A stretch of DNA of 64,000 nucleotides from Hypomesus transpacificus (lineage: Eukaryota; Chordata; Actinopteri; Osmeriformes; Osmeridae). The stretch is from NCBI RefSeq assembly GCF_021917145.1, contig NW_025813765.1, positions 62,001-126,000 on the forward strand. The letters run 5' to 3'. Position 1 is the stretch's first letter, and every line of letters starts with the position of its first letter. The notes below the pieces were generated by a model. That model ran no database searches and was not told where the DNA came from. It saw only the letters and a program-made list of their open reading frames with translations. Positions 2,610-57,770 of this stretch are shown in pieces. The position numbers were made by a program, and so were the translations under genes.

Positions 2610-2610
2610 C

Positions 2611-9400: not shown

Positions 9401-9620
9401 AACCCACACGCCCAGTCTGGCCTTACCAGCTGGGTATAAAATGCGTTGGTCTTCACAAGAACTTGACCTTGCACACCAAGCAATTCAGGCACATGGAGGG
9501 AGTGCATCAATGCAGGCATACAAGCTCTACGTCGACCTTTGTATCAATGCCAGAACACCCACACGCACTCATGATGCCTTTAAAAAGAAAGGGGTCACTT
9601 TTCGGCTTCAAACTCTTTAA
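6406..9620 (+). CDS. three-exon gene, 932-aa protein of unknown function with C-terminal SANT/Myb-like segment
   Basis: Exons are 6406-6410 (the coding end of an exon bounded by CAG at 6366 and GT at 6411), 6618-7011 and 7221-9620. All junctions are GT-AG and the frame stays open for 932 codons. The first exon is also open upstream of the ATG, so a further 5' exon is possible. I do not recognise the main body, which looks globular with scattered Cys and His (for example CDIQSKCGDYHHFW). A Gln-rich stretch follows near residue 830. The last 60 residues (MRWSSQELDLAHQAIQAHGG onward, ending RTHDAFKKKGVTF) look like a SANT/Myb-type DNA-binding helix bundle. It could be a host gene or the main protein of an undescribed mobile element. 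Telomeric tracts lie on both sides (5,634 and 10,891). Confidence 0.7.
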
Positions 9621-10890
9621 AATGGGTGATGTTGTGTGTATATCCTGTGAATTTTGTTTGTTTTTTTTGTTGTTTTTTTTTTTATAAAAAATGTTAAAGA
9701 AGTGAATATGGACATGTTTTTGTCTTAAATTCTTTAATCCCTTGTTCACTCGTGTTTCAGGGAGTTTGTTCTTCCCCGCGCATCCCCCGAGCAGGTGCTC
9801 TCTCAGCCCGGTTTCAAGGTTGCTTCTGAAATGGAGAGATAACAACACAAAATACAGCCTGTTTCCCACACCCTGTGTGAGACACAATGTTTTAAGCCTG
9901 AGCACAGTTCTAAGTTCATAAGACATACATATAATAAGCACAATACATAACTTTATCTTGTTTCTTTCACTTCACAAAAGCTGTTCTTTCTTTTAAAAGT
10001 TAAGTTTAAGACCTCTATTGTTTCAGATTCTCCATTTTACCAAATCACACCTCTTTTCATCAAAGATATGATAAACCCAATTTTCACTATGCCAAACCAG
10101 AATCTGTATGCTTCTTAAATGAAATATAGACCAATTAACGTTCTTAATGTGGCTATTAACCAAACAAATTTCCCAACTGTATTTTCTACACAGGTCAGAT
10201 AGGTAGAACTTCATAACTCGCTCTGCTGCTGTTCAAAACGAGTCATTTAGCTCAAACCATCATAACCACAATTCATCAGACTTCATGAGTCTTCCCAAAT
10301 TATTTCTGAACTGAGTGTTATAATAACCCTCTTCGTGCACAAACACCATTTATTAATACAACATTATCACAGCCTAACTGTTTATCCCATAGACCTTCAA
10401 AGTACATTGATCATTTCCTCTTCACTACGTCAATGTTTTGTAACCTATCATCTCTTCACATGGGAGAATGAAAGAACCCTGGTACGGCTTCGCTCCTGAG
10501 TGGACACGCTGGTGACGGAGGGACATTGCCACGTTGCCGTGGCCTTTGCCTGGCCGAGGTGCCCAATTGGGGGACAAACACCACAAAACGCATACCCACG
10601 GAAAGCTGGAGGCCTGCCGAATGCAGGGAGATCGCCCGCGTGCGACGGTCAGACTCGTAGCCCGCACAAGGGCTTCACCAGAGGCCAAAGGCCAGACCTT
10701 TGACCTCATGCATGCAGACTGTCGTAGTGGCTTTTTTTGTCCACCAGGTGGAGCAAGGTCTCGAAACCCTGTGACGTCCGTGCACTGTGAAGTTTGCTGG
10801 GCGGTGTCAAAGCGCCTCGGCCAATGGGCTAGCTAGGGATATGTAAACGAGTGCCATTCAAATGAGTGTCAAGCTCGTTGGCAAGCGCTT
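9621..10890. other. gene-free interval after the 932-aa gene
   Basis: AT-rich 3' flank followed from about 10,440 by GC-richer sequence. An ATAAAA at about 9,684 could serve as a weak poly(A) signal. Short open stretches exist but none has support. The interval stops at the telomeric tract at 10,891. Confidence 0.5.
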
Positions 10891-10936
10891 ACCTAACCCT
10901 AACCCTAACCCTAACCCTAACCCTAACCCTAACCCT
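10891..10936 (+). repeat. interstitial telomeric tract (CCCTAA)n
   Basis: Seven to eight hexamers. The reading frame of the downstream RT passes through it as Pro-Asn repeats. Confidence 0.97.
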
Positions 10937-13429
10937 ATAGCCAAAATAGTCATCTTAGATAACCACCAGTACATTTTTGAAGCAAACAGGCAGTTAAACA
11001 ACATCAGACATTATAAAATCATACCGGATAGCATACAACCACAGACACAGGTGAGACTTAGGACTATCATCAAATCACTTTATGACAGACGCTACATTAC
11101 AGCTAAGCAACGGGACTACCTATACGGACCGGACACCCCACGACAAAGACTCTTTTACTTACTTCCCAAGATCCACAAAGAACCGGACACCTGGACCATT
11201 CCCTTTGAAGTTCCTCCTGGCAGACCCATAGTATCCGATTGCAACAGCGAGTCCTATAACATCTCGGAATACATCGACTACTACATCAACCCCTTATCCA
11301 CCCAGCACCCCAGCTATCTTAAAGACACATATCACTTTTTAGAAAAGCTCAAGCCCATAGCCGTTCCCTCCCACACACACATCTTTACCATCGATGTTGA
11401 CAGCCTGTACACCAACATTAACACCACAATGGGTGTGCAGGCTGTCAAATCCCTATTTCATAAGCACCCAGATAACAATAGACCGGATCAGGACATTTTA
11501 CAGTTATTACAAATTAGCTTAGATAATAACGATTTTTTATTTAACAATAAACATTATCTGCAGACGATGGGAACGGCTATGGGCAAAAAGTTTGCCCCCG
11601 CATATGCCAACATTTACATGGCTGAGTGGGAGAGAGAAGCGCTGTCAAAGTGTCCACTGCAACCATCATTCTACTTCAGGTTTTTAGACGATATCATAGG
11701 GGCATGGCCACACGACATCAAACATTTCACGGAATTCATACACATACTTAACTCACACCATCCATCCATCACGGTGAAGTACATCATTGACCCACAACAG
11801 ATTCACTTTCTGGACACTACAGTTTACTTTCACACGATAAACGCAACACATAAGACACTTCAGACACGAGTATATTTCAAACCCACAGACACACACGCAC
11901 TATTACATAAACATAGCTATCACCCCAAGCACACATTTAAAGGTATCGTCAAATCACAGATCATCCGGTTTCATAGAATATCGTCTCACAAAGACGATTT
12001 ACACATAGCCATTCAAACACTCTTTCACTCACTCAGACAAAGGGGATATTCCAAGAGGTTTCTGCGCACTATTAAAAATGACACTTTGGCAGCTCTCTCT
12101 CCCACTCGGCCCACACACACACCCAACACTACAAACAACGATACACACACAACCAACACACACACATCACACACACCTCAGACATTCCTAATACAAGCAA
12201 CAGTACATACACAACCTGCAGCAGAGCCCCTCCCCCTCCTATCCCCCTTCCCCCCAAATCCTCTCCCTTACCCTACACCGGGTTTGCATCCTGTATCCTC
12301 CCCCAACCCCCCTCCTAACCCTAAACCTTCCCAGGGCCCTGCTACAGTACCCCACCCAACACCCCGCTACTACCCCATCTTTAATTCCACCCGTAGTCAT
12401 AGTCACCAACCCCACCCTCCCCTTAGCCCCACTCCTCCCCCTCCCAAAACTATACCCAGCCTGGTCCCCTACCCTAACCACAACCCCTCGGATCCCGCGC
12501 CTAACCCCAACCCTCCCCGCAACCCCACCCCCCCTCCTTTTAATTCCACGGGTAGACCCAACCTGACTTTTAACCCTAACCACAACCCCTCGGATCCCGC
12601 GCCTAACCCCAACCCTCCCCGCAACCCCACCCCCCCTCCTTTTAATTTCACGGGTAGACCCAACCTGACTTTTAACCCTAACCCCAACCTTCCCGACCCC
12701 ACGCCCAACCTCAACTCCCCCTTTAACACCTCCGCGGACCCGCCCTTTAACCCCATCCCGGAATCACCCCCCCCCTTTAACCCTACCTTTCCTCCCACTT
12801 CCCCGGCTACCTCACACACAACCGGCACTGGCCCAGATCCACCTAAAATCATAATTCCCTTAGTCACGACATTCTCACATAGAACACGCCCACTACAACA
12901 TACATTCAAACACAATTTCACCACAGCTCAACACACATACCCCCCACTTAAACCATATAGGATCATCTCCGCATATAGAAAAAATAAAAGTCTTAAGGAT
13001 ATCCTCATACACACTAAATTCAGCAATATGCCCCCTCCAATAACCAAACCTCACACATTGCACTACAAAAACAGGAAATTTATTACAAACCCCCATAGCC
13101 ACACATCGGCTCCAGTCCCGGACAGCCTCACCCTACAAACCTCCAATGTGGTTTACATCATCACCTGCACCCTCTGCCATAAACACTATGTAGGAGAAAC
13201 CGGAGCCTCAATAGACACTAGGCTGAAACAACACCTCAACAACATCTCTCGGGCACACCTACAAACAACACTGGTCACACACTTCCAGGAGCACCCCGTC
13301 ACTCACCTCATCATATCTGGTGTGGAGTCGGGGCCCGGGTGGTCCAGTGGACAGCGGAAGCATGCCGAAAGAAAATGGATCACACAGTTGAACACAATTA
13401 CACCCCTGGGACTGAATGAGAAAACATAA
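10937..13429 (+). CDS. truncated PLE reverse transcriptase - GIY-YIG endonuclease
   Basis: Open throughout, and open even further upstream across the telomeric tract to 10,862. RT landmarks in order: LPKIHK, GRPIVSDCNSES, the catalytic block TIDVDSLYTN, AMGKKFAPAYANIYM, and FRFLDDIIG (the YxDD-equivalent). A linker of about 230 residues follows, rich in Pro-Asn. Then comes the endonuclease VYIITCTLCHKHYVGETGAS with a CxxC pair, ending LGLNEKT and TAA at 13,429. The N-terminal DKGS region of PLE RTs is missing because of the truncation. AATAAA follows at 13,464. The domain order RT then GIY-YIG is diagnostic for endonuclease-bearing PLEs. Confidence 0.85.
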   Translation: MAKIVILDNHQYIFEANRQLNNIRHYKIIPDSIQPQTQVRLRTIIKSLYDRRYITAKQRDYLYGPDTPRQRLFYLLPKIHKEPDTWTIPFEVPPGRPIVSDCNSESYNISEYIDYYINPLSTQHPSYLKDTYHFLEKLKPIAVPSHTHIFTIDVDSLYTNINTTMGVQAVKSLFHKHPDNNRPDQDILQLLQISLDNNDFLFNNKHYLQTMGTAMGKKFAPAYANIYMAEWEREALSKCPLQPSFYFRFLDDIIGAWPHDIKHFTEFIHILNSHHPSITVKYIIDPQQIHFLDTTVYFHTINATHKTLQTRVYFKPTDTHALLHKHSYHPKHTFKGIVKSQIIRFHRISSHKDDLHIAIQTLFHSLRQRGYSKRFLRTIKNDTLAALSPTRPTHTPNTTNNDTHTTNTHTSHTPQTFLIQATVHTQPAAEPLPLLSPFPPNPLPYPTPGLHPVSSPNPPPNPKPSQGPATVPHPTPRYYPIFNSTRSHSHQPHPPLSPTPPPPKTIPSLVPYPNHNPSDPAPNPNPPRNPTPPPFNSTGRPNLTFNPNHNPSDPAPNPNPPRNPTPPPFNFTGRPNLTFNPNPNLPDPTPNLNSPFNTSADPPFNPIPESPPPFNPTFPPTSPATSHTTGTGPDPPKIIIPLVTTFSHRTRPLQHTFKHNFTTAQHTYPPLKPYRIISAYRKNKSLKDILIHTKFSNMPPPITKPHTLHYKNRKFITNPHSHTSAPVPDSLTLQTSNVVYIITCTLCHKHYVGETGASIDTRLKQHLNNISRAHLQTTLVTHFQEHPVTHLIISGVESGPGWSSGQRKHAERKWITQLNTITPLGLNEKT

Positions 13430-17950: not shown

Positions 17951-18384
17951 ACCTGACCTTAAATTTTAGTTAAAGCCCCCCCTCCTCTCTCTCTCTCTCT
18001 CTCTCTCTCCTATTGAATATACACACACACACATATATATATATATATTCTCCCACTCTCTCTCTCTCTCTGGTCTGTGAGTCCCTTTCTTTCTACAGTT
18101 ATATCTGGACCCTCACTTACAGTTCTTTACTTAGTTTAATTTAATGTATCTTTTAAAATGTACACATCTACTCTGTACACACACACACACCAATGCGCTC
18201 TAGCTCTCTCTCTCCCCTCGCTCTTACTCTTTTCCCTAGAAAATTAATCCCGAATTACCGCTTCTGGTGGGTTGACATGGGGGCATCGGGGGGACCACCA
18301 CCATCCTTCTTTGGTGCAACCTCGGTGTCCTGTGTTGGTCCTTAGTCGTAACCTGCCCCTTGTTCCTGCACGACCTCATTTATC

Positions 18385-18429
18385 GTCACCTGACGAGTCC
18401 CGAAAAGGGGACGAAACCGCGGTCGTGGC
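18385..18429 (+). ncRNA. type I hammerhead ribozyme (element B)
   Basis: Stem I GTCAC/GTGGC (18385-18389, 18425-18429, one G-U pair), core CTGACGA 18390-18396, stem II GTCCC/GGGAC with a short loop, GAAA 18413-18416, palindromic stem III segment CCGCGG, cleavage site TC 18423-18424. Confidence 0.85.
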
Positions 18430-18818
18430 CAGTTAGGACACCACCAATATCCCTGCGTATTTTCGGTATGGGCCTGCAGGAGGCACCGCCCAGGGAGTGG
18501 AGTCCTGCGTTCTTGACTACAACTTTTATTTGCTCCAATAGGAGCGCCTCACTCTCTGTCCCTACCTCTGTACCATTACTGTCCTTGTGGCTTTGTCTTC
18601 ACCGCACCTCGGTGCATTGAGGACAGGGCTTCGACACTCATGTGTCTGCCTATTCTGTTAACCCCTTCCTTCCGCAGCATTATATGGTCTGTAGGTTCTC
18701 TACTCATCTAGGTCCTCTACTCATCTACACTCGGGTTTGGTTTAGCCTCTTATTTCAACAGGTAGGGGCCCCCCTCTCTCCCTTATTAGTTGTGCAGATT
18801 AAGTTAGCTACCCGACAG

Positions 18819-19029
18819 GTAAGACACGCACTCACTCACAATGCACCCATACACCTTCCACCCATTAGATGCACTCCCCCTCTCCCTAGTCTCCACCAGC
18901 AACTATAGTTTTGATCCTCTCTTCTCGTAGCCCACGTCAATATACGTCGCTCCTCCTTATAATTACTTGCGATATTCTCTAGGACGCTCACTCATACTCC
19001 TGCCCCCTCTGTTTCACTCTCGTCCGTAG
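18819..19029 (+). other. predicted leader intron (element B)
   Basis: Donor CCCGACAG|GTAAGAC and acceptor CGTCCGTAG. The first ATG after it (19,031) opens only an 82-codon frame. The long ORF1 frame starts at ATG 19,089. Confidence 0.55.
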
Positions 19030-19088
19030 CATGTCTGGAACCGACCGCTACCGCCGAGGGGATCCTCGCCTGCCACACGACCCTTACT

Positions 19089-21650
19089 ATGCTACTGACC
19101 CGGACGGGTATTGGGGAGCCTTCTCCCACCACTCTGCCTTCCCCACCTCCTGGGAGGATGATCGGCACACAACTCGGGTTCGGCCCCGCCTCCGGGGCCC
19201 CCCTGAACCATATAGAGACCCACTGCCGTGGCAAGGCCCGGCCAACTTTGTCGGGGGTTCTGTTTGGGGGTCCTCCTGATCCACCTCAGGCCCCGGGCCA
19301 ACCATCTGGTTTCTCTCATCCTTATAACTCCTATATGGGAGACGACTACCATTATGCCCCTACGTTTGCAAGAGCGCGGCGCATAGACCTGTCCACATCT
19401 CGACGTGCCCCCAGGGCAACACGCGAGACCCCTGCCTTCCGCCGCTCTCTCGGTCCTGGACGTGCTCCGACAACAACACGCCAGACCTCTATTGCGGACC
19501 AGTATGAGTCACGACGTGCCCCCAGGGCAACACGCGTGGCTCGTACTGCGACCACCGCTACCTACCACACTAGGGCCTCGCGCGCCCCCAGAGCTCCACG
19601 CGGGTCCCCTGTTACAGGCCCGCCGACCCCGGTCTTCCGACGTGCCCCCAGGGCAACACGCGGAACCAACTCGGTCGCTCCCCCTCGCCAGTTCGCACCT
19701 AGACGAGGCTTTGTACAGCCTGGGCCACTGGACTGGGCCTCCAGTGGCCCCGCTGCAACCCGGGCACGACGTCCGTCCGCTCCTCCTCGCCAGTCCTGGC
19801 CTAGACGAGGCCCCACACAGCCTGGGCCACTGGACCGGGCCTCCAGTGGCCCCGCTGAAACCCGAACGCGGCGTCAGCGCGGTGGCGTACCACGTAGCCC
19901 GGCAGAACGACGCATCAGGAGACGCCTGGCTCGTGCACGCTCTCTCTTAAATAACAGGCGCACGTCAACGAGAGTCGGGGACGGGGACGCGGCAATCAGC
20001 CATCCCCAGACCAACCCCATCGTACCTGCCCGAGCGGCTACTACTGCCGTTGTTCCGAGCACCACACCTGTTCGCGCGGCCGCCAATGTCGTTGTTCCCG
20101 ACGCCCCACCTGGCGTACTACAAATGTCCACCGACAGATATTCGGTCGACGCCGAACAGTCGCGTAGAACCTATGGCAGACACACAACCCAGGTGGGCAA
20201 AACCATCTGCAAACTCATCAAAGAGACTCACCATTATGGGGAGGTCAAGGCCTACGTGACGGACGGCATACAACCTCCGGGGCTCCGCGCCAAAGTCGAC
20301 GAACTAGCCACCATGTTCAGACCGTCGTCGTCCACACACCACAACTGGAACCGGCTCCAACACATCTCCGTCACGTTCATCCAACAGGCCTATCAGTCTC
20401 TAGAGGAACACTACCACGAAAATATAGAACGAATGGCGCGTACCCTTAGGGAGCGTCAGGCCACCTTTAATAATTGGATCGTCGCATGGGAGTTGGGGGT
20501 TAGATGGGCCACTCGGGACCTGGGAAACGCTGTGTCACAAGCCACGATACGTCTGGCCATGTCATCTCTGCCTTGCGACGTCTTTCCTTCTCTTTCTTCT
20601 TCTTCTTCTCTTTCTCCTTCGGCTGCTAACGTACCCTGGGCTCCTCCGGTTTCCGCAGCCAGGCCTGTCAGACCCGTATTCACACCTTCTTTAGTGCCGC
20701 GCGCGTTGTTCCCGCCACAACTAACTCTCAGGGCACCCACCGCGACAGCTACACGAACGAGCCTGGACATGGAGACTGAGGTGCCTCTGGCCCGCCCTTA
20801 CTCTGATCCAGTCTTGGCTGCGGCCAGAACCCGCAGCTTCTCTGACGTCGTCTTAGCTCCTGTCCCGATGGACACCGCCGATTCGAATGACCTGGAGTGG
20901 AGCCAACTCGACACCACCGAGTTGGCAACATTCTCTCCACAAATGGCATCTCCAGCCGCTCTACGCACTCTACTCAGAGCACCTCTCCTCGACGAAACTG
21001 AACCCTCTCTCTTCGATCTGGCCAGAGCTCTGGACACTGGCGACCCCAGCACCTCTGGGTCTGTGTCACGTCCACCTCTCTCTCTTTCTATCCCTCCTCT
21101 TGAGCCTCTCTCGTCACCGTCGTGGTCTTTAGCCCGCTCCTCTGATGAGGAGACGGAGGAAACCACTCTGCGCGAGGTACTGCTGGCGGGCCTCCCCCAT
21201 TCTTCTGACCTCTTTGGTCCTCCTTTCTCTTCTGCTGCTGTCACTCCGTCGTTACCGGTCCCCACAGCGGTTGACGCCTTAGCGCCCGCACCCGGTCCCT
21301 CCCCGCTGGGAGCCCGGAGACGCACCACGCTCAACTCTCCGTCTGCCCACACCACCACTGCGGTTGCGAACTTGACGCCTGCACCCGGTCCCTCCCCTCT
21401 GGAGGCCCGGAGGAACAATCCACCACCTCTCTCGATCAACGCTGCGGTTGCCGCCAAGACGCCCGCACCCGGGTCCTCCCTCTTGGGGGCCCGGAGACTG
21501 ACTCCCTTCAATGCTGCTCTGGCTACACGGACAGCCGACAATATGCGACAGACTCCCCTCAATGCTGCCACGGCTACAAGGACAGCCGATTTAACGACCG
21601 CCGCGCCACAGCTGGGGCTTTATACCAGACACGAGCACCATGGCAATTAA
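19089..21650 (+). CDS. element B ORF1, Arg-rich N-terminus and conserved central domain
   Basis: 853 codons open. Residues about 90-300 contain repeated RRAPRATR-type motifs, strongly basic and likely nucleic-acid binding. Residues about 345-500 hold a predicted helical domain whose landmarks HHYGE, LR.KVDELATMFRPSSST, EEHYHENIERM and GVRWATRDLG match a region of element E ORF1. After that come Ser/Pro-rich repeats with four PGPSPL or similar motifs. The end, LYTRHEHHGN, is the sequence that in A1, C and D leads straight into the SGNH domain. That domain follows here in the same frame at 21,690 after one interruption. The protein is plausibly the RNA-binding ORF1 of the element; I know no named family for the central domain. 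Confidence 0.7.
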   Translation: MLLTRTGIGEPSPTTLPSPPPGRMIGTQLGFGPASGAPLNHIETHCRGKARPTLSGVLFGGPPDPPQAPGQPSGFSHPYNSYMGDDYHYAPTFARARRIDLSTSRRAPRATRETPAFRRSLGPGRAPTTTRQTSIADQYESRRAPRATRVARTATTATYHTRASRAPRAPRGSPVTGPPTPVFRRAPRATRGTNSVAPPRQFAPRRGFVQPGPLDWASSGPAATRARRPSAPPRQSWPRRGPTQPGPLDRASSGPAETRTRRQRGGVPRSPAERRIRRRLARARSLLNNRRTSTRVGDGDAAISHPQTNPIVPARAATTAVVPSTTPVRAAANVVVPDAPPGVLQMSTDRYSVDAEQSRRTYGRHTTQVGKTICKLIKETHHYGEVKAYVTDGIQPPGLRAKVDELATMFRPSSSTHHNWNRLQHISVTFIQQAYQSLEEHYHENIERMARTLRERQATFNNWIVAWELGVRWATRDLGNAVSQATIRLAMSSLPCDVFPSLSSSSSLSPSAANVPWAPPVSAARPVRPVFTPSLVPRALFPPQLTLRAPTATATRTSLDMETEVPLARPYSDPVLAAARTRSFSDVVLAPVPMDTADSNDLEWSQLDTTELATFSPQMASPAALRTLLRAPLLDETEPSLFDLARALDTGDPSTSGSVSRPPLSLSIPPLEPLSSPSWSLARSSDEETEETTLREVLLAGLPHSSDLFGPPFSSAAVTPSLPVPTAVDALAPAPGPSPLGARRRTTLNSPSAHTTTAVANLTPAPGPSPLEARRNNPPPLSINAAVAAKTPAPGSSLLGARRLTPFNAALATRTADNMRQTPLNAATATRTADLTTAAPQLGLYTRHEHHGN

Positions 21651-21689
21651 GGCTGTTGGAGCCTGGCTCCCGGTAGGCAAACTATATTA

Positions 21690-22142
21690 ATGGGAGATTC
21701 AAACCTCCATCGCCTCCCTGCCATTGATATTGACACGGTACAGGTTGACTGCTATCCGGGAGCCAGGCTCTACCATGCCATCGGCATTCTCTCCAAAATT
21801 TCGGCCCCCGTACTCCACATCAAACGTGTAGTATTGGCCTTCGGCCTTAACAATCGGTCCGTAGCGGTAGACACGTCCACGAAACAGGCCATGAGTGTGT
21901 TCACCAAAGCCACTGCGGCTTTCCCTCACGCCTCTATCTCTTTTCTCCTTATCAACACTTCTCCGTTTCTCTCGCAGTCAGAAAAAGACACCATAGCCAG
22001 TCTCAACCGCTTCCTCGCAGCACACGTGCCCATCGTTCCGCTACTGCCTCTCGCCTCCTTTAACACGGGTACGGATCACATCCATTGGACGACCGCCACG
22101 GCCAGGGCCATGCATGCACACCTGCTGAATTATTTAAACTAA
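21690..22142 (+). CDS. SGNH hydrolase domain of element B
   Basis: 150 residues: MGDSNLHRL with the nucleophile Ser, CYPGA, FGLNNRS with the block III Asn, and TDHIHWT with the Asp/His pair. It is the C-terminal part of ORF1. The last codons AAT TAT TTA AAC TAA place a canonical -1 slippery heptamer directly before the stop, and the RT frame overlaps this one by 58 nt. Confidence 0.8.
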   Translation: MGDSNLHRLPAIDIDTVQVDCYPGARLYHAIGILSKISAPVLHIKRVVLAFGLNNRSVAVDTSTKQAMSVFTKATAAFPHASISFLLINTSPFLSQSEKDTIASLNRFLAAHVPIVPLLPLASFNTGTDHIHWTTATARAMHAHLLNYLN

Positions 22143-24337
22143 TTGGACCCTCTGACCAAGCCCAGAGGGAGAGGAAAGGCCTGATCAACCTTTCCTCCCA
22201 TTTCAAACCCACGCCAGCGCAATGCAGCCTGTTAGTCAGAGGCCTTTCATTTGTTCCGACTCTCAATATCGCCGCGGGCGGCAGACAAAATTTGTGCCTC
22301 GAGATTTCCAATTATCACCGCAGAGTTAAACTGGCCACATATTTTGAAGACAGAGAACCTGTTGAGATAGCAGAGCGTCCACGTTTCTTTCCTAAGTCAC
22401 ATTGGACTCCCAAAGATAGCCAGTTACCTCCCGTGATACCCGCTCTAGTTGCGGAGGACCTGCGGGCCTTAAACTCCCTCCCTAACCCAGACGCGGAGAT
22501 CCTCAATCTCACTAGTGAGGAAGTCGTGGCTCTTAGACAGTTGCGGGCAGACCCGCATCTTGTCATTAAGCCAGCCGACAAGGGCTCCGCAGTGGTCATT
22601 ATGGACCGAGCGCACTATGTCTTAGAAGCAGAGAGACAACTCAACATGCCTGAGTATTACCGCACATTAGATGAACCGATGTACACCACCACGGCCCTTG
22701 AGATCGACCGGATCCTCGTGTGCCTGGTGAGACTGGGTTATCTAGCACCCAAACAACGGCTATATCTGATGGGCGAGGGGGAACCCCAACCTAGAAAATT
22801 CTATCTCCTACCTAAAATCCACAAGGATCCAGCCTCCTGGCCCGTTCCCTATCAAATACCTGCCGGCAGACCCATAGTTTCGGACTGTGGCAGTGAGACT
22901 TATGGCATTTCTGAGTACATCGACTCGTTCCTTAATCCACTGTCAAGTCAACACCCCAGCTATGTCAAGGATACGTATGACTTCATAGCCAAGGTGAGGG
23001 CAGCGAGACTTAACGAGAATGACCTGCTCTTTTCTATGGATGTTGACAGCCTGTATACCAACATAGAGGCACCTGAGGGTCTGAGAGCGGTCCGGCAGAT
23101 GTTCACTCTGAACCAGGCGGCAGACCGCCCGGACGAGCAGATCATGCAGCTGCTTGAAATCGCACTCACCAAAAATGACTTTGGGTTTAATGGGAAAAGT
23201 TATCTCCAGCTCAATGGGGTCGCGATGGGGAAGAAATTTGCCCCTGCCTATGCTGATATTTATATGGCTATGTGGGAGGCCACGGTTCTTCCCAAGTGCC
23301 CTCTCAAACCTACACACTACCTCAGATACTTAGATGACATCTGGGGAGTGTGGCCACACTCCAGAGAGGACTTTAGTGCCTTTGTCAACATCCTTAACTC
23401 CCATCACAACTCTATCAAGGTCAAATACGTACTCAGTGATAGCAGCATGGACTTTCTGGACACCACGACCTTTAAAGGAGTGGATTTCCCCACGTCCCAC
23501 TGCCTAGATGTCAAGGTGTTTTTCAAGGAGACAGACACACATGCTCTACTGCACAGAGACAGCTACCACCCGAAACACACATTTCCTGGGGTAGTCAAAT
23601 CACAGCTACTGCGATTCCATAGAATATGCACTCAGCACAGTGACTTCCTGGCAGCTAAACAAACCCTCTTCCAGGTGCTGGCCCAGAGGGGATATCCACG
23701 CAGCCTCCTACGACAGGTCTCTAGGACCTTTCTAGAGGTCACGCAGCGTGAGGACACACTCACAATCCCCCTAGTCACCACGTTCGGACGCCGTAATCAG
23801 CTCCTGAACCATAGACTAAGGCTTAACCTGGCAACACACCTGAGGGACTCGGGCATATTGGAGGGGGCCACCCTTATCTCGGCCTACAAGAAAAAACGTA
23901 GCCTAGGTGAGGTCTTAGTCAGCAGCGGCCTTAAGCCGCTAAACCCCACACCGCGGCCTCAGCACACGCACTTTTCACCTCTCACTACTGTTCATGCTCT
24001 AGCGCTGAACGCCAGACTCCCAGTGGTTTCTCTACCACTGTCAACATGCAATGCGGTGTATGTGATCACGTGTAGTGCATGTGGCTTACGTTATGTAAGT
24101 GAGACTGGTAATGCCCTCCAACAACGCCTGACCCAACACCTTTACAACATCAATAACCACCGCTGCCTTGACACGCATTTAGTCCCCCACTTCCTGAGAC
24201 ACGGAGCTGAATCTCTTAAAATGAGCGGCCTGGAACACAATCCAGAGTGGATGCGCAGACAACGACAGGCCGGTGAGAGAAAATGGATATGGAGACTATC
24301 CTCTCTATATCCTGAGGGCCTGAACGCCCACACCTGA
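22085..24337 (+). CDS. element B reverse transcriptase - GIY-YIG endonuclease
   Basis: The open frame begins at 22,085 without an ATG and lies -1 relative to the SGNH frame, so translation by frameshifting at 22,133-22,139 is likely. Landmarks: KPADKGSAVVIMD, LPKIHKDPASWP, GRPIVSDCGSET, SMDVDSLYTNI (first catalytic Asp), AMGKKFAPAYADIYM, YLRYLDDIWG (catalytic Asp pair), then VYVITCSACGLRYVSETGNA and ERKWIWRL of the endonuclease, ending at TGA 24,337. The usual YVGETG reads YVSETG here. RT followed by GIY-YIG with a CxxC identifies an endonuclease-bearing PLE. Within that group I cannot assign it to Neptune or Poseidon by eye. Confidence 0.85.
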   Translation: MDDRHGQGHACTPAELFKLIGPSDQAQRERKGLINLSSHFKPTPAQCSLLVRGLSFVPTLNIAAGGRQNLCLEISNYHRRVKLATYFEDREPVEIAERPRFFPKSHWTPKDSQLPPVIPALVAEDLRALNSLPNPDAEILNLTSEEVVALRQLRADPHLVIKPADKGSAVVIMDRAHYVLEAERQLNMPEYYRTLDEPMYTTTALEIDRILVCLVRLGYLAPKQRLYLMGEGEPQPRKFYLLPKIHKDPASWPVPYQIPAGRPIVSDCGSETYGISEYIDSFLNPLSSQHPSYVKDTYDFIAKVRAARLNENDLLFSMDVDSLYTNIEAPEGLRAVRQMFTLNQAADRPDEQIMQLLEIALTKNDFGFNGKSYLQLNGVAMGKKFAPAYADIYMAMWEATVLPKCPLKPTHYLRYLDDIWGVWPHSREDFSAFVNILNSHHNSIKVKYVLSDSSMDFLDTTTFKGVDFPTSHCLDVKVFFKETDTHALLHRDSYHPKHTFPGVVKSQLLRFHRICTQHSDFLAAKQTLFQVLAQRGYPRSLLRQVSRTFLEVTQREDTLTIPLVTTFGRRNQLLNHRLRLNLATHLRDSGILEGATLISAYKKKRSLGEVLVSSGLKPLNPTPRPQHTHFSPLTTVHALALNARLPVVSLPLSTCNAVYVITCSACGLRYVSETGNALQQRLTQHLYNINNHRCLDTHLVPHFLRHGAESLKMSGLEHNPEWMRRQRQAGERKWIWRLSSLYPEGLNAHT
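22133..22169 (+). promoter_or_regulatory. probable -1 ribosomal frameshift signal (element B)
   Basis: The heptamer T TTA AAC (22133-22139) is in the correct phase, followed at once by TAA. After an 8-nt spacer, CCCTCTG (22148-22154) pairs with CAGAGGG (22163-22169), a perfect 7-bp stem. After slippage the frame reads FKLIGPSD and continues into the RT. Heptamer, phase, spacer and stem all fit known -1 signals. Confidence 0.8.
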
Positions 24338-26447: not shown

Positions 26448-26638
26448 GGTATGACACCCACCCACTCACTCTCACACACACACACACACACTGGGCCCCC
26501 CCCACCTATTACTATTCAATTTTTTATTTTCCACACACCCCCACTGCTGTCAAATCCCCCCCCCCCCCCCCCCCCCCCCGTCGGGCTCTCATACTTTTTG
26601 TCTTGTCTCCTTCCTTCCTCTCTCCGTTTCCCTCTTAG
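26448..26638 (+). other. predicted leader intron (element C)
   Basis: Donor CGGACAG|GTATGACACC and acceptor TTTCCCTCTTAG, one base before ATG 26,640. It contains (CA)n and a poly-C run at about 26,558-26,579. Confidence 0.6.
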
Positions 26639-26639
26639 T

Positions 26640-26933
26640 ATGTCTCGCTGTTTCACCCATCCGCGCACTTTCACGGTGCCTCCCCTTCCCTCCCCGCCCC
26701 CACCACCCCTCCCTGGATCCCTACTTGGGACCATGCCCCCTGACGACGGCCTGTCTTCACCCCTGCGTCACCTGCTCCTTGACCCCCCGGATGACGGGAG
26801 TTCCTCCCGTCGCTCCAGCTCACGTGGCAATCCACCACCCAGCACCCTCCACTTCCCTCCGAAGCGCTGGACGTCACATCCCTGCCCTTTCCGTCACACC
26901 ATTCCTACCGGGGACCGCAGGGCGCGCTGCTGA
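26640..26933 (+). CDS. proline/serine-rich N-terminal segment of element C ORF1
   Basis: 97 codons from the ATG next to the splice acceptor (MSRCFTHPRTF). Composition matches the N-terminal part of A1 and D ORF1, where it is in frame with SGNH. Here the SGNH frame lies in another phase and overlaps this one. Low-complexity, no domain. Confidence 0.5.
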   Translation: MSRCFTHPRTFTVPPLPSPPPPPLPGSLLGTMPPDDGLSSPLRHLLLDPPDDGSSSRRSSSRGNPPPSTLHFPPKRWTSHPCPFRHTIPTGDRRARC

Positions 26934-29691
26934 CGCGCGCCCGCTTCCCGCGTACACCTGCCATGAACATAGGGGCACCAAACGCCTTTGGTCGGTGACC
27001 CCGGTCAGGAGGACAGTGGTGATGGGAGATTCCAACCTCCAGCGCCTTCCACCCATCCTCCTGAACCACGTGCAGGTTGACTGCTATCCAGGAGCTACCC
27101 TTGTGCATGCCACCAATATCCTCGATGGCATCGTAGCCCCTTGCTCACATGTCAGGCAGGTTGTCCTGTCCTTTGGTCTCATGGACCGCTGGACCATTAC
27201 GGACACCTCCATCCAACAGGCCCGTGCGTTGCACATGCGGGCTACCGCCGCATTTCCGCACGCCTCTGTTTGGTTCCCCCTCATCAACACGGCCTCCAGC
27301 TTGCCTCGCGCTGAGAGGGAGAATGTAGCTCGCCTTAATCACTTTCTGACCACGATCACGTCCACCATTCCCCTCCTCCCTGATCACCTATTCCACACTG
27401 AAGCGGACCATGTCCACTGGACCCCTCCCACTGCCCGAGCCATTCTCACACACTGGTCCAACTTCCTGAACCTGGTGATATCCCCCGATCTGACCTTGGT
27501 TGAGAGAAAGGGTCTAGTTAACCTGTCCTCCCACTTCAGACCATCGCCAGCTCAGGTCTCCCTCCTGCTCAAGGGTCTCTCCTTTGTCCCTATCCTTAAC
27601 TTGGGACATGAGAGCCCACCCAGCATGCGCCTTGACATAGCGACTTACCACCGCAGACTCAAGCTGGCTGCCTTTTTTGAGGGGAGGGAGCAGACAGACC
27701 CCTCTGAACGCCCCCGCTTCCTCCCTAAATCCTCCTGGACGCCCAAGGACCACCAACTGCCCCCGGTCATCCCCAGACTGGTGGAAGCAGACCTACGGTC
27801 CGCTGCCTCTCTCCCTAATGACGGAGATGATGGCCCCAACCTCACTCCTGAGGAGGTCAAGGCCCTCAGACAACTGCGCCAGGACCCGCACCTGATCATT
27901 AAACCGGCGGACAAGGGCTCCGCGGTGGTGGTCATGGACCGCGAGCACTACATCCAAGAAGCGGAAAGACAACTCCACATGCCTGAATACTACCGCACGC
28001 TCGATGAACCCATGTACCTCACTACAGCTAATGAGATCAATCAGATTCTCGCACAGCTCTTGAGGCTGGGCTACTTGGTGCCCAGGCAGCGGCTATATCT
28101 GATGGGTGAAAACGAACCTAAGCCCAGGAAGTTCTACCTTTTACCCAAGATCCACAAGGATCCAGCTTCCTGGCCCGTCCCCTTCCAGATCCCTGCTGGC
28201 AGACCCATCGTTTCTGATTGCGGTAGTGAAACCTATGGCATTTCGGAGTATATCGACTCGTTCCTTAACCCGCTGTCCCACCTGCACCCCAGCTATGTGA
28301 AGGATACTTATGACTTCATAGCCAAGGTCAGGGCAGCGAGGCTCAACGAGACCGACCTCCTCTTCTCCATGGATGTGGACAGCCTCTACACCAACATAGA
28401 GGCTCCGGAAGGGTTGAGCGCTATCAAGCATATACTGCAGCTACACCCCAAAGCGGGACGCCCGGACAGGTACCTTATGCAGCTGCTTGAAATCGCGCTC
28501 ACCAGGAATGACTTTGAGTTCAATGGTAATTTTTACCTGCAACTCAAAGGGGTCGCCATGGGGAAAAAGTTTGCTCCGGCCTATGCTGACATATATATGG
28601 CGAGGTGGGAAGCGGATGTTCTCCCCATGTGCCCCCTCCAACCCTCCCACTACCTCAGATACTTAGATGACATCTGGGGAGTGTGGCCACACCCACGGGA
28701 GGATTTCACAACCTTTGTGGACATCCTCAACTCCCACCACGCCTCCATCAAGGTTAAGTATGTCCTCCATGAATCCAGCATTGACTTCCTGGACACCACC
28801 ACCTTCAAGGGCCAGGGCTTCCCTACATCCCACTGCCTGGACGTGAAGGTGTTCTTCAAGGAGACGGACACGCACGCACTCCTGCACAGGGACAGCTACC
28901 ACCCGGAACACACGTTCCCTGGGGTAGTCAAATCACAGCTGCTGCGGTTCCACAGGATCTGCACGCAGCGTGATGACTTCCTTGCGGCCACCCATACCCT
29001 CTTCCGGGTTTTGGTCCAGAGAGGCTACCCACGTCGCCTCCTCCGAAGTGCTCTGAGCACTTTCCGAGTGGTACGGCCCCGCAGAGAAACCCTCCACAAC
29101 ATCCCCTTGGTAACCACCTTCAGCTGTCGCAGCCGACTCCTCAACCAGAGGCTCAAACACAACCTTCACTCGCATCTGAGGGCTTCGGGCACACTGGAGG
29201 ACGCATCCCTCATCTCGGCCTACCGTAGGAATCGCAGCCTGGGCCAATCCTTGGTCCGCAGCGGTCTGAAACCCCTTAACCCTACGCCTAGACAGCCCCC
29301 TACACACTTCCAACCCCTCCGCACAGTACAGTGCCCCGCTCTCGGTTCGGCGCTCCGCCTCGTCCCCCTGCCGCCCTCGACCTCCAACGCTGTGTACATG
29401 GTCTCCTGTTCCCTATGCGGCCTGCGTTATGTCGGGGAGACAGGCACTTCCCTCCAAACGGGCCTCGCAAGGCACTTGTATGATGTCAACAACTGCCGCC
29501 GTTTGGACACCCATCTAGTCCCCCACTTCCTCCGTCATGGGGTTGACTCCCTCCGCATGTGCGGCCTGGACCATGGTCCCACCTGGACGCTCCGCCAGCG
29601 CCGCGCGTGCTTACAGAAGTGGATCTGGAGACTCTCCTCTACATACCCGAGTGGCCTCAACACTAGCCCCCCCATACAACCCACACCTTGA
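26725..29691 (+). CDS. fused SGNH hydrolase - reverse transcriptase - GIY-YIG protein (element C)
   Basis: 988 codons open without a break. The open frame has no ATG at its left edge, so the real start is uncertain. SGNH domain at residues about 85-250: GDSN with S103, CYPGA, FGLMD (Met where the family has Asn), and D228-x-x-H231-W. RT at about 255-860: KPADKGSAVVVMD, LPKIHKDP, GRPIVSDCGSE, SMDVDSLYTNI, AMGKKFAPAYADIYM, YLRYLDDIWG. Endonuclease at about 885-985: VYMVSCSLCGLRYVGETGTS, then the WIWRLSSTYPSGLN end. The junction reads NFLNLVISPDLTLVERKGL, with no stop between SGNH and RT. Elements B and E reach the same product only by a -1 shift. This is the clearest evidence in the window that SGNH and RT-EN belong to one polypeptide. 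Confidence 0.85.
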   Translation: MGPCPLTTACLHPCVTCSLTPRMTGVPPVAPAHVAIHHPAPSTSLRSAGRHIPALSVTPFLPGTAGRAADARPLPAYTCHEHRGTKRLWSVTPVRRTVVMGDSNLQRLPPILLNHVQVDCYPGATLVHATNILDGIVAPCSHVRQVVLSFGLMDRWTITDTSIQQARALHMRATAAFPHASVWFPLINTASSLPRAERENVARLNHFLTTITSTIPLLPDHLFHTEADHVHWTPPTARAILTHWSNFLNLVISPDLTLVERKGLVNLSSHFRPSPAQVSLLLKGLSFVPILNLGHESPPSMRLDIATYHRRLKLAAFFEGREQTDPSERPRFLPKSSWTPKDHQLPPVIPRLVEADLRSAASLPNDGDDGPNLTPEEVKALRQLRQDPHLIIKPADKGSAVVVMDREHYIQEAERQLHMPEYYRTLDEPMYLTTANEINQILAQLLRLGYLVPRQRLYLMGENEPKPRKFYLLPKIHKDPASWPVPFQIPAGRPIVSDCGSETYGISEYIDSFLNPLSHLHPSYVKDTYDFIAKVRAARLNETDLLFSMDVDSLYTNIEAPEGLSAIKHILQLHPKAGRPDRYLMQLLEIALTRNDFEFNGNFYLQLKGVAMGKKFAPAYADIYMARWEADVLPMCPLQPSHYLRYLDDIWGVWPHPREDFTTFVDILNSHHASIKVKYVLHESSIDFLDTTTFKGQGFPTSHCLDVKVFFKETDTHALLHRDSYHPEHTFPGVVKSQLLRFHRICTQRDDFLAATHTLFRVLVQRGYPRRLLRSALSTFRVVRPRRETLHNIPLVTTFSCRSRLLNQRLKHNLHSHLRASGTLEDASLISAYRRNRSLGQSLVRSGLKPLNPTPRQPPTHFQPLRTVQCPALGSALRLVPLPPSTSNAVYMVSCSLCGLRYVGETGTSLQTGLARHLYDVNNCRRLDTHLVPHFLRHGVDSLRMCGLDHGPTWTLRQRRACLQKWIWRLSSTYPSGLNTSPPIQPTP

Positions 29692-34000: not shown

Positions 34001-34726
34001 AAAGGGCAACTAAAAGGCAACCCGCCTCTAGACCAAGCCTGCTCTGAGCCCTCCCCTTTCCACCCTACCGAGGGGCCTGTGGGGGACTCTCCGCAACCTG
34101 GTGCCTCAGCACACACACCCCCACAGCCACCACACACTCTGCAGTCCCCATCACAAAATCAAACCATTTCCCCACACAGGTCTACATCATTCAAACCCTC
34201 ATACCACATAGCCCGCCCCTCACGCAAGGTGGCAGATTGGACCATCAAGGGCATCAAGTCCCACCTATTCCTTGGGGATTCCAACCTTAATAGAATCCCC
34301 TCCTTTCATAACCCCATGGTACAGGTGGACAGCTACCCTGGGGCCAATTTCTATTACTTCCAAAAGATCTTGGAAAAAACAACAGTACATCCACACACAA
34401 AGGTGGTCGTCCTCTCAGTGGGTATCAACAATAAGGACCACGACCCATACCAGACATCACTCAAACAATTAGCCAGAATGCACAAGGAAGCCAAGATCAC
34501 CTTCCCCAACGCTACCATCTATGTCCCCATTATAAATCACTCACCACTTCTCACCCCACAACAGAAACAAAACATGAAGATAATCAATGCATATATTAGC
34601 GCACACCTACCCACACTCCTTGAAATACCGCACGACTCATTCCGCACCACTAGGGACACTATTCACTGGACACCGGAAACAGCAACAGACATATTCTCTC
34701 ACTGGTGTGCACAGCTAAATTTATAA
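31070..34726 (+). CDS. element E ORF1: His/Thr-rich repeats, central domain, SGNH hydrolase
   Basis: 1,218 aa. Residues 1-205 are extremely rich in His, Thr, Asn and Gln, with a 17-residue repeat (HNTQTHNTHADTHHTQR) in about five copies. Residues about 210-345 form the conserved helical domain shared with element B (HHGEIM, RQVGKLTSFIRPSSPT, LQTHYNKTI, AMGWAQKRYTHRL). Residues about 525-745 contain a 34-residue repeat (cores TATQQPLITTHTDMTSTH and ITHSRTQQS). The C-terminus is the SGNH domain: LGDSNLNRI with S1071, SYPGA, VGINNKD, and RDTIHWT. The last codons CTA AAT TTA TAA put the heptamer A AAT TTA directly before the stop. His-rich arrays could bind metal or simply reflect CA-rich DNA. 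The SGNH call is firm. Confidence 0.8.
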   Translation: MHSQMHPPPRASHMYNRTPYPPIQTQYHHTQTHDHHTHPHNTQAHNIHSHDTHLQYTQPRQALTYNTQGHNTHTHNTQPYNRQAHYTHPRQTHPPSAQPHNTQTHNTHADTHHTQRHNTQTHNTHADTHHTQRHNTQTHNTHADTHHTQRHNTQTHNTHVDTHNTQRHNTQTHNTHADTHHTQRHNTQAHNTHADTHNTQTHSTYNARATGQAPDEATRQAAKLYFKIIQAVHHGEIMNTAILTKTHPRGMMRQVGKLTSFIRPSSPTEHTTELVSQNTTSWMNNNLDILQTHYNKTIQTLIPTAPTLNTTALHIAMGWAQKRYTHRLTDTTITTVETLLQLPSATQHEQAHRTIPTPQPPILQPVTTHMVTRTTDPPTHQPHTATTTTTTHTAILAPHTSTVQPRKTYADICKPRTPSQQPPSSLTHTITSQAPQSFPQQQSTTHIVDNTTPHTLHTPHTVNNITQHTTHITDNMTSLSPPEQSLDTTNITTPHLVSPQPPTTHIASNTTPHSPTQHALTAHIDTTPTHTATQQPLTTTHTDMTSTLTGTPTTHPCTQQSTTHTATQQPLITTHTDMTSTHAAISITHSRTQQSTTHTATQQPLITTHTDMTSTHAATPITHSHTQQSTTHTATQQPLITTHTDMTSTHAATPITHSRTQQSTTHTATQQPLTTTHTDMTSTHAGTPITHSRTQQSTTHTATQQSLTTAHTDMTSTHATTPIIHSRTQQSPTSHSMIQEPHTSHFILPVVGSPTAPQTLSVSRPMVSPPSMSHVPQPVILRSASPIHRTTTQHSPLSMVQSATLPVLPPLQPITCPNTPTKELISTHIGRPTEQHITDTSFHNTQASPEFPLLSRPTHAYKYTLNLGSRTSQIPLLATTSRTPPTLATKSLTQSHFKKFTCSPSNTQTHTRGAFSTEISFPSPVGHHSSPPLTSPLPQKPSPNIIKYPLTPSFFPSPGTGQESLPKNRPPMQANMMKGQLKGNPPLDQACSEPSPFHPTEGPVGDSPQPGASAHTPPQPPHTLQSPSQNQTISPHRSTSFKPSYHIARPSRKVADWTIKGIKSHLFLGDSNLNRIPSFHNPMVQVDSYPGANFYYFQKILEKTTVHPHTKVVVLSVGINNKDHDPYQTSLKQLARMHKEAKITFPNATIYVPIINHSPLLTPQQKQNMKIINAYISAHLPTLLEIPHDSFRTTRDTIHWTPETATDIFSHWCAQLNL

Positions 34727-35262
34727 CCACTCTTACTCACAACCCAGACACTTTCAACATCACCACACATTTATCAAGGACACACACACCTACTGCCCCC
34801 CCTCTCCCCGCCCCCCAGCCCCGTCATGCATCACCATCCCTCAACTCTAACATTTTGAATCTGTCCAAAACATTTCACCCATCACCAACACAAGTAGCAC
34901 TTCTGGAGAGAGGCCTCACCTTTGTGCCCCGCCCCACCACTTTTGACCAGGAGGAACTTCAAAGGGACATCCACAAATATCACAGACGACTTAAAATTCT
35001 GGACTACTTTGACTATACAGAGAGCGATAACCACCTGCCCTTCATCAATCCTTCCACCTGGGAGCCTAAACTCTCCCAGGTGGACCACCACATCAGGACC
35101 CTCATTAAGACGGATAAAAGGACTCTACGACACTACAACACACAGACGGACAGACAGGACAACCTCACTACCACACTCCGAGAATCACTACAAACACTTA
35201 AAAACAACCCACACAGTCATCAAACCAGCGGACAAAGGATCCAAAATAGTAATCTTAGATAA
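34705..35262 (+). CDS. N-terminal part of element E RT frame
   Basis: Open frame lying -1 to ORF1 and overlapping its end by 22 nt, with no ATG at the left edge. It contains LNLSKTFHPSPTQVALLERG and IHKYHRRLKILDYFD, equivalent to the region between SGNH and RT in B and C (VNLSSHFRPSPAQ..; YHRRLKLA.F). The RT itself continues in a neighbouring phase from about 35,200. Confidence 0.65.
   Translation: MCTAKFITTLTHNPDTFNITTHLSRTHTPTAPPLPAPQPRHASPSLNSNILNLSKTFHPSPTQVALLERGLTFVPRPTTFDQEELQRDIHKYHRRLKILDYFDYTESDNHLPFINPSTWEPKLSQVDHHIRTLIKTDKRTLRHYNTQTDRQDNLTTTLRESLQTLKNNPHSHQTSGQRIQNSNLR
34717..34726 (+). promoter_or_regulatory. probable -1 ribosomal frameshift site (element E)
   Basis: A AAT TTA at 34717-34723, in phase with the SGNH frame and followed by TAA. 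This is the same heptamer used by Rous sarcoma virus gag-pol. A -1 slip yields AKFITTLTHNPD, the start of the RT-side frame. I see no strong simple hairpin just downstream, so a pseudoknot or weaker structure would be needed. Confidence 0.7.
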
Positions 35263-37627
35263 CCACCAGTACATTTTTGAAGCAAATAGACAGCTAAACA
35301 ACATCAGACATTATAAAATCATACCGGATAGCATACAACCACAGACACAGGTGAGACTTAGGACTATCATCAAATCACTTTATGACAGACGCTACATTAC
35401 AGCTAAACAACGCGACTACCTATACGGACCGGACACCCCACGACAAAGACTCTTTTACTTACTTCCCAAGATCCATAAAGAACCGGACACCTGGACCGTT
35501 CCCTTTGAAGTTCCTCCTGGCAGACCCATAGTATCCGATTGTAACAGCGAATCCTACAACATCTCGGAATACATCGATTACTACATAAACCCCTTATCCA
35601 CCCATCACCCCAGCTATCTCAAAGACACATACCACTTTCTAGAGAAGCTCAAGCCCATAGCCGTTCCCTCCCACACACACATCTTTACCATCGATGTTGA
35701 CAGCCTGTACACCAACATTAACACCACAATGGGTGTGCAGGCTGTCAAGTCCCTATTTCAAAAGCACCCAGATAACAATAGACCGGATCAGGACATTTTA
35801 CAGTTATTACAAATTAGTTTAGACAATAATGATTTTTTATTTAACAATAAACATTACTTGCAAATAATGGGAACGGCTATGGGCAAGAAGTTTGCCCCCG
35901 CATATGCAAACATTTACATGGCTGAGTGGGAGAGAGAAGCGCTGTCAAAGTGTCCACTGCAACCATCATTCTACTTCAGGTTTTTAGACGATATCATAGG
36001 GGCATGGCCACACGACATCAAACATTTCACGGAATTCATACACATACTTAACTCACACCATCCATCCATCACGGTGAAATACATCATTGACCCACAACAG
36101 ATTCACTTTTTGGACACTACAGTTTACTTTCACACAATAAATGCAACACATAAGACACTTCAAACACGAGTATATTTCAAACCCACAGACACACACGCAC
36201 TATTACATAAGCATAGCTATCACCCCAAGCACACATTTAAAGGTATCGTCAAATCACAGATCATCCGGTTTCATAGAATATCGTCTCACAAAGACGATTT
36301 ACACATAGCCATTCAAACACTCTTTCACTCACTCAGACAAAGGGGATATTCCAAGAGGTTTCTGTGCACTATTAAAAATGACACTTTGGCAGCTCTCTCT
36401 CCCACTCGGCCCACACACACACCCAACACTACAAACAACGATGCACACACAACCAACACACACACATCACACACACCTCAGAGGTTTCAAATACAAGCCA
36501 CAGTACATACGCAACCTGCAGCAGAGCCCCTCCCCCTCCTATCCCCCTTCCCCCCAAATCCTCTCCCTTACCCTACACCGGGTTTGCATCCTGTATCCTC
36601 CCCCAACCCCCCTCCTAACCCTAAACCTTCCCAGGGCCCTGCTACAGTACCCCACCCAACACCCCGCTACTACCCCATCTTTAATTCCACCCGTAGTTAT
36701 AGTCACCAACCCCACCCTCCCCTTAGCCCCACTCCTCCCCCTCCCAAAACTATACCCAGCCTGGTCCCCTACCCTAACCACAACCCCTCGGATCCCGCGC
36801 CTAACCCCAACCCTCCCCGTAACCCCACCCCCCCTCCTTTTAATTCCACGGGTAGATCCAACCTGACTTTTAACCCTAACCCCAACCTTCCCGACCCCAC
36901 GCCCAACCTTAACTCCCCCTTTAACACCTCCGCGGACCCGCCCTTTAACCCCATCCCGGAATCACACCCCCCCTTTAACCCTACCTTTCCTCCCACTTCC
37001 CCGGCTACCCCACACACAACCGGCACTGGCCCAGATCCACCTAAAATCATAATTCCCTTAGTTACGACATTCTCACATAGAACACGCCCACTGCAACATG
37101 CATTCAAACACAATTTCACCACAGCTCAACACACATACCCCCCACTTAAACCATATAGGATCATCTCCGCATATAGAAAAAATAAAAGTCTTAAGGATAT
37201 TCTCATACATACTAAATTCAGCAATATGCCCCCTCCAATAACCAAACCTCACACATTGCACTACAAAAACAGGAAATTTATTACAAACCCCCATAGCCAC
37301 ACATCAGCTCCAGTCCCGGACAGCCTCACCCTACAAACCTCCAACGCGGTTTACATCATCACCTGCACCCTCTGTCACAAACACTACATAGGAGAAACCG
37401 GGGCATCAATAGAAACTAGGCTCAAACAACATCTGTACAACATCTCACGAGCACACCTTCAAACAACACTCGTCACACACTTCCAGGAGCACCCCGTCAC
37501 TCACCTCATCATCTCTGGTGTGGAGTCGGGGTCCGGGTGGTCCAGTGGACAGCGGAAGCACGCTGAAAGAAAATGGATCACACAATTGAATACAATCACA
37601 CCCCTGGGACTGAATGAGAAAACATAA
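35200..37627 (+). CDS. element E reverse transcriptase - GIY-YIG endonuclease
   Basis: Landmarks: KPADKGSKIVILD at about 35,225, LPKIHKEPDTWTVPF, GRPIVSDCNSES, TIDVDSLYTNI, AMGKKFAPAYANIYM, FRFLDDIIG at about 35,980, a proline-asparagine-rich linker of about 200 residues (36,400-37,030), IIIPLVTTFSHRTRPL, then VYIITCTLCHKHYIGETGAS and ERKWITQL, with the stop at 37,627. The linker is far longer than the short one in B and C. AATAAA is at 37,664. E' differs from E by one extra 34-residue linker repeat and a few substitutions. Confidence 0.85.
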
Positions 37628-44091: not shown

Positions 44092-44092
44092 C

Positions 44093-57690: not shown

Positions 57691-57770
57691 TCCAAACCCA
57701 GTCAGTAGCATTCCAAAGCCTTGCCACAAACGAAATAAAGCAATGGAAAAGATCCCCAAAAAGGGGTGGT

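Follow-up and report, generated by a model that had tools for sequence, protein, structure and literature searches.

A putative −1 programmed frameshift signal between the SGNH ORF1 and the reverse transcriptase of fish Penelope-like elements

A stretch of 64,000 nucleotides (nt) of the Hypomesus transpacificus genome (contig NW_025813765.1, positions 62,001 to 126,000, forward strand; hereafter the window) carries a retroelement, designated element B, in which a frame coding for an SGNH (GDSL-type) domain is followed by an overlapping frame coding for a reverse transcriptase (RT) and an endonuclease (EN). Backward slippage of the ribosome by one letter is a device known chiefly from coronaviruses and retroviruses; the junction between the two frames of B is very probably a −1 programmed frameshift signal of this kind, predicted to yield a fusion of the first open reading frame (ORF1), SGNH, RT and EN. 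A reading of the window made from its letters alone (the sequence-only reading) had proposed that B makes an SGNH-RT-EN fusion in this way, and the recurrence of the arrangement in relatives of B supports the proposed mechanism.

The SGNH frame of B (21651–22142; this and the following features are on the + strand), taken as the zero frame, ends with the codons AAT TAT TTA AAC TAA. The slippery heptamer T TTA AAC (22133–22139) is in phase with this frame, and the zero-frame stop codon TAA (22140–22142) lies immediately 3′ of it. The RT frame is open from 22064 to 24337 (757 amino acids, aa), lies at −1 relative to the SGNH frame, overlaps it at 22064–22142 according to the ORF listing, and reads ELFKLIGPSD through the site; the putative Penelope-type RT with its C-terminal GIY-YIG-like EN occupies 22133–24337. 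A spacer of 8 nt (22140–22147) separates the heptamer from a hairpin (22148–22169) whose arms, CCCTCTG (22148–22154) and CAGAGGG (22163–22169), are fully complementary over 7 bp and enclose an 8-nt loop, and inverted-repeat and fold prediction places a second hairpin, GAGGAAAGG / CCTTTCCTC, at 22171–22197. The in-phase heptamer ahead of the SGNH stop, the −1 position of the RT with FKLIGPSD across the site, and the perfect 7-bp hairpin 8 nt past the heptamer had all been described in the sequence-only reading, and all were borne out. Away from the junction, in-phase canonical heptamers were found at 15 of 5511 codons (0.27%) in seven related ORF1s; the chance of an in-phase heptamer is about 7% anywhere in the 25-codon overlap and about 0.3% exactly before the stop. 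The hairpin of B taken alone is ordinary (z −0.98 in a 40-nt window, with 5.6% of the element's 1779 windows equally stable). Because the chance figures are modest and the hairpin is ordinary, the single site in B is only suggestive, and relatives had to be compared.

Two checks had been put forward with the sequence-only reading, namely whether the heptamer, its phase and the hairpin are conserved in homologues, and whether the RT has a conserved start codon of its own. A search with the B RT against the 437-Mb assembly (376 contigs) gave 64 matches, the best 30 of which are loci L002–L031 (L002 being B itself), and the junction was readable in 28 of these 30, L013 being a fragment and L024 beginning past the junction. 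Of the 28 readable loci, 24 combine an RT at −1 with an in-phase heptamer where the SGNH frame ends. The heptamer is TTTAAAC in 19 of them (the B copies L002–L007 and the decayed L010; the decayed B2, L026; F1, L015–L022; and F2, L023, L025 and L031), GTTAAAC in one (F3, L014), and AAATTTA in four (D2, L027–L030). GTTAAAC, the arterivirus type, is strictly non-canonical. Many of the 24 loci are near-identical copies, and the distinct families are B, B2, F1, F2, F3 and D/D2. The RT frame of L031 is shortened (644 aa). Element D of the window carries A AAT TTA (34717–34723, + strand) in phase, directly before the stop of its SGNH frame (34724–34726), and its RT is in the −1 frame. Both frames are open in the D2 copy L041 (1260 and 992 aa), whereas the RT of element D in the window (34654–37627) is split over two frames.

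The other four readable loci (L008, L009, L011 and L012) are in-frame SGNH-RT fusions that lack the heptamer, the codons at the junction being TTC CTG AAC CTG in L008 and L009 and TCC CTT AAC CTC in L011 and L012. Absence of the heptamer from all four fused loci is what would be expected if frameshifting is its purpose. The window itself holds a natural control, element C (26455–29691, + strand), in which SGNH and RT share one frame of 1078 aa without a heptamer. Fused relatives encode the junction directly (NFLN-LVISPD in C and SLN-LTGPSD in L037), and the junction peptide predicted for the frameshifted product, LN-L, matches what they encode. Two SGNH-only elements of the window (2536–4206 and 43979–44869) have no RT right after the SGNH frame and no heptamer. 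These two elements share 265–280-bp repeats downstream, and are possible non-autonomous partners.

A profile scan of genome contigs with the RT alignment detected a single relative, L001, on contig LJHE01000041.1, which is filed under the bacterium Epulopiscium; scans of viral contigs detected no relative. The contig starts with CCCTAA repeats and carries two tandem copies of a Penelope-like element (PLE), each with both ORFs open, and it is probably host fish DNA in an Epulopiscium record. The ORF1-SGNH frame of L001 (616 aa), listed as a bacterial hypothetical protein (P0127), ends TAT TTA AAC TTC AAA GCC CCT TAA, with TTTAAAC in phase, and the RT (765 aa, 45% identical to that of B) lies in the −1 frame. 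The heptamer and its phase are present in this distant homologue as well. A further search of the whole genome, this time with the L001 RT, gave no full-length match beyond those from the search with the B RT. The same signal in relatives that differ so much looks evolved rather than accidental.

Database proteins were compared on both sides of the junction. Among 8000 scored proteins, 3412 exceeded the threshold as RT homologues; 120 were listed, and the 114 of up to 800 aa were aligned. Seventy-two of the 114 begin past the site and are uninformative, and 41 of the 42 that could be placed at the column read K-L, the exception (P0083) having been misplaced by the aligner. The residue before KL is F in 21, V in 8, L in 4, I in 4, P in 2 and C in 2; F-K-L is the −1 reading of TTT AAA CTN, and V fits GTT AAA. 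On the SGNH side, 56 of 65 matches (P0121–P0185) end with LN followed by 0–14 residues and the stop, the number of residues being exactly four in 43 of the 56, and the L001 protein P0127 is one of these 56. The other nine comprise an in-frame fusion (P0121) and eight proteins outside the pattern, five of which (P0124, P0164, P0179, P0180 and P0183) were judged to be truncated or mispredicted records; the LN ending is thus found in 56 of 59 judgeable SGNH proteins. LN in one frame together with KL in the other implies nTTAAA[C/T] or a near relative, although the two lists are drawn mostly from different records. The named sources include Oreochromis, Sarotherodon, Hemibagrus, Channa, Scophthalmus, Xyrichtys, Pogonophryne and Coilia, with one cluster also bearing a ferret label, and the proteins are clustered at 90% identity, so that the counts are not of independent events.

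The RNA downstream of the heptamer was folded over 108 nt counted from the heptamer and compared with shuffled sequences, which gave z values of −3.06 for B, −3.34 for F1, −2.95 for F2 and −2.36 for F3. A strong stem begins 6 nt past the heptamer in L001, the 40-nt window folding at −22.4 kcal/mol (z −2.44). The spacer between heptamer and hairpin measures 8 nt in B, 7 in B2, 7 in F1, 6 in F3 and 6 in L001, and B2 retains the stem of B with one G-U pair. Between F1 and F2, which share the stem, one pair is compensated on both sides (G-C to U-A) and one changes from G-C to G-U, 18 of 18 cells being paired; a shuffle control cannot discriminate here because there are only two sequences. Downstream structure is usual, not universal. 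The expectation that the hairpin would be conserved in homologues held in part: a stable structure is present in B, B2, F1, F2, F3 and L001, but the hairpin is absent from D and D2. The D-type elements may shift without a hairpin, may use structure further off, or may shift poorly.

Both the SGNH domain and the RT are under purifying selection. The ratio of non-synonymous to synonymous substitution rates (dN/dS) between B and its copy L032 is 0.138 for the RT (732 codons) and 0.109 for SGNH, the latter on only 3 synonymous and 1 non-synonymous change; between F1 and F2 it is 0.136 for SGNH and 0.082 for the RT, at a synonymous divergence (dS) of about 1.8, and between D and D2 it is 0.186 for SGNH. 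The F1/F3 comparison was saturated, and the value of 0.84 for ORF1 of the window copy against L032 is unusable, 266 of 2665 aligned bases being out of frame. B and L032 were also unusable for asking whether the heptamer outlasts synonymous change, because their SGNH domains are too similar (dS 0.025); in F1 and F2 the heptamer is identical at the dS given above, and was kept while synonymous sites varied. TTA makes up 9–29% of the leucine codons in B, B2, F1, F2, F3 and L001, yet all six have it at the heptamer. In B the RT frame does not reach an ATG until residue 179 of 757, inside the RT and behind the KPADKG motif, and in F3 not until residue 119, and the RT frames of L001 and D2 have no AUG ahead of the KPADKG motif and the RT core. 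With its ATGs so scattered or missing across families, the RT has no conserved start of its own, and the second of the two checks came out in favor of the proposed frameshift.

Several results, besides the ordinary 40-nt hairpin of B, weigh against this reading. Three of the 24 loci with the −1 arrangement (L007, L010 and L026) have stops within the RT match, and the dN/dS of the RT N-terminus between D and D2 (169 codons) is 0.51. The folds of the two D-type elements, which lack the hairpin, gave z values of +1.36 (D) and −0.98 (D2), that of L001 over the full 108 nt is ordinary (z −0.75), and the F2 spacer is just 3 nt long. The covariation amounts to one pair in two sequences. At the matching offset the fused controls gave mixed values, −1.27 for C (L009 has the same sequence) and +1.15 for L037, a contrast that points the expected way without being clear-cut. 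Among the proteins longer than 800 aa, and outside the alignment, P0002, P0003, P0088 and P0115 have an SGNH or SGNH-like domain that runs straight into the RT (LN-L), so that not every relative needs the shift, and P0013 and P0114 have other long in-frame N-termini in which no SGNH was seen. The SGNH proteins P0122, P0123 and P0176 lack LN. The RT frames of F1 and F2 have an ATG at residue 1, 4 codons 5′ of the heptamer.

This last observation is what favors a separate synthesis of the RT, in which ribosomes would reinitiate past the SGNH stop or initiate internally there, the overlap serving to couple the two frames and not for slipping. The positions of the first ATG in B (residue 179) and F3 (residue 119), and its absence before the core in L001 and D2, do not fit such a scheme; judging from B and P0001, the "M" with which many database proteins begin is consistent with TTG from CAT TGG, and a fixed in-phase heptamer would be left unexplained. 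We consider separate synthesis highly unlikely. An intron, or RNA editing, could also restore the frame, and part of the text of PMC3846280 mentions an intron inside a Penelope ORF, while a reference title on retroelements containing introns appears in part of PMC6431247. However, the fused relatives C and L037 align through the junction with no missing stretch, and an intron would exert no selection for an in-phase X XXY YYZ, and we give this explanation almost no credence. Readthrough of the SGNH stop codon of B was rejected, since the frame past the stop soon closes and the RT is in another frame.

Given the related in-frame fusion C in the window, B could instead be a broken copy that has lost one base from an ancestral in-frame SGNH-RT gene, the heptamer being coincidental. 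From the AAC codon to the conserved ERKGL block, element C does run one nucleotide longer, and the ORF1 of the B copy in the window is itself damaged: its upstream part, in a gag-like position (18963–21650, + strand), is parted from SGNH by an in-frame TAA (21648–21650), and the first portion of that part (18963 to about 19249) does not share the frame of the remainder. In contrast, the copies L032, L034 and L035 have one continuous ORF1-SGNH frame of 1053 aa and an RT frame of 757 aa, open throughout; since they differ from one another at only 3–5 of about 6980 aligned bases, they were counted only once as evidence. An RT at −1 in an open frame, together with an in-phase heptamer, is also found in F1, F2, F3, D2 and L001, and selection acts on both SGNH and RT. 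The broken-copy explanation is extremely improbable, and we rejected it on account of the intact −1 copies in divergent families. B and L032 are near-identical up to about 22363 and differ by several percent thereafter, a mosaic that suggests recombination or template switching; because of it, the identity of the two copies near the junction was not used as evidence.

If the junction of B is a frameshift signal, ribosomes would translate ORF1-SGNH first, and the tRNAs in the P and A sites would slip back in tandem by one base on T TTA AAC, to TTT AAA, with the downstream stem-loops aiding the slip. A minority of ribosomes would enter the RT-GIY-YIG frame (NYLN-LIGPSD) and produce the ORF1-SGNH-RT-EN fusion as a minor product, and the remainder would halt at TAA, leaving ORF1-SGNH alone as the main product, in a ratio like that of Gag to Gag-Pol. 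We infer the slippage itself, its rate and the purpose of the product ratio. Frameshifting at −1 is probably the ancestral and standard means by which teleost SGNH-bearing PLEs express their RT, with a Gag/Gag-Pol-like economy, from which D would have departed by switching its heptamer to AAATTTA and giving up a nearby hairpin, and C and L037 would have become fused and then lost the heptamer. It is the breadth of families, rather than a tree, that suggests that fusion is derived and frameshifting ancestral. A conserved −1 frameshift, if true, would give PLEs a retrovirus-like two-product strategy, would make the SGNH protein a testable analogue of Gag, and would make it possible to study how frameshift signals arise and are lost on many natural examples from vertebrates, for which the in-frame relatives would serve as controls.

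The assignment of the parts of B draws on motifs and profile matches. A type I hammerhead ribozyme lies on the 5′ side of the element (18384–18430, + strand; Rfam RF00163, 35.5 bits against a gathering threshold of 34); RF00163 is also present in L032, and no hammerhead was detected at E ≤ 0.01 in L001, L039 or L041. The Pfam matches of the RT-EN frame fall below cut-off in B, RVT_1 only just (E 2.8e-6, 27.6 bits; cut-off 29.6), and GIY-YIG with E 0.0021 and 18.8 bits (cut-off 22.6); GIY-YIG exceeds the cut-off in L001 and D2, and the database listing of P0001, which is 95% identical to the B RT, carries PF01541. RT, GIY-YIG and hammerhead together place B among the putative PLEs, on the strength of motifs and of the accompanying GIY-YIG and hammerhead, rather than of a PLE-specific model or a tree. 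The SGNH domain of B has all of the GDSN, GxN and DxxH motifs, and eight columns (G15, D16, S17, N18, G65, N67, D142 and H145) are invariant among 34 sequences. At E ≤ 1, Lipase_GDSL_2 matches 8 of the 34 (the best at 2.1e-4), and the copy in the window is not among these eight; the best PDB profile match is chain 4c1b_A, "ORF1-encoded protein" (weak, E 0.046), which we take to be the ZfL2 esterase, and the SGNH domain searched on its own against the PDB gave no match. The SGNH label thus rests on the conserved catalytic blocks, the eight Lipase_GDSL_2 matches and the weak match to 4c1b_A.

Four known systems lie closest to the arrangement in B. The coronavirus ORF1a/1b signal shares with B the UUUAAAC heptamer, a short spacer, a downstream RNA structure and entry into a polymerase frame at −1, but B is a retrotransposon and not a virus, and the downstream structures in B are predicted stem-loops. 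In the gag-pol arrangement of animal long terminal repeat (LTR) retrotransposons and retroviruses, as in B, an upstream ORF of structural type is followed by pol in −1 with a tandem-slip heptamer, although the frameshifters described in the part of PMC5009743 covered here are LTR elements; the word Penelope does not occur in the first 300,000 of the 475,107 characters of that paper. PLEs form what is regarded as a third retroelement class (PMC11167929, in part), and PLEs of the Penelope/Poseidon type share a hammerhead ribozyme and tandem copies with the elements described here, along with the PLE-type RT and GIY-YIG EN putatively assigned to these (parts of PMC11167929 and PMC3846280). The RT and EN of canonical PLEs lie in a single ORF, according to the same part of PMC11167929, whereas in B the SGNH ORF1 comes first and the RT follows in −1. 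An SGNH esterase domain upstream of the RT is shared with the CR1/ZfL2 non-LTR elements, and an esterase in Penelope-like elements was already noted (PMC3905857, in part); GDSL has been described in the rotifer Athena elements and Terminons (PMC5408684, in part). The word frameshift does not occur in the main text of PMC3905857, and where the parts of PMC3846280 and PMC6431247 covered here mention frameshifts, in PLEs or in other elements, these are lesions of decay. Programmed frameshifting of a PLE was described in none of the passages covered here, all from openly accessible papers and none from subscription journals or Repbase reports, and a prior description is possible. SGNH in PLEs is already known, and programmed frameshifting in PLEs is apparently new.

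Other features of the window lie outside these elements or in truncated relatives. An ORF of 817 aa (7167–9620) has no Pfam or NCBIfam match, and one of 480 aa (42338–43780) has weak matches to tyrosine recombinases (XerD, 1.5e-4), far under the curated cut-offs. A 5′-truncated RT of D type (10847–13429) starts directly in CCCTAA telomeric repeats, as if it had inserted at telomere-like sequence. A tandem array of ten 695-bp copies (57358–63918) contains tRNA-Ile(AAT) and tRNA-Ala(AGC) genes on opposite strands.

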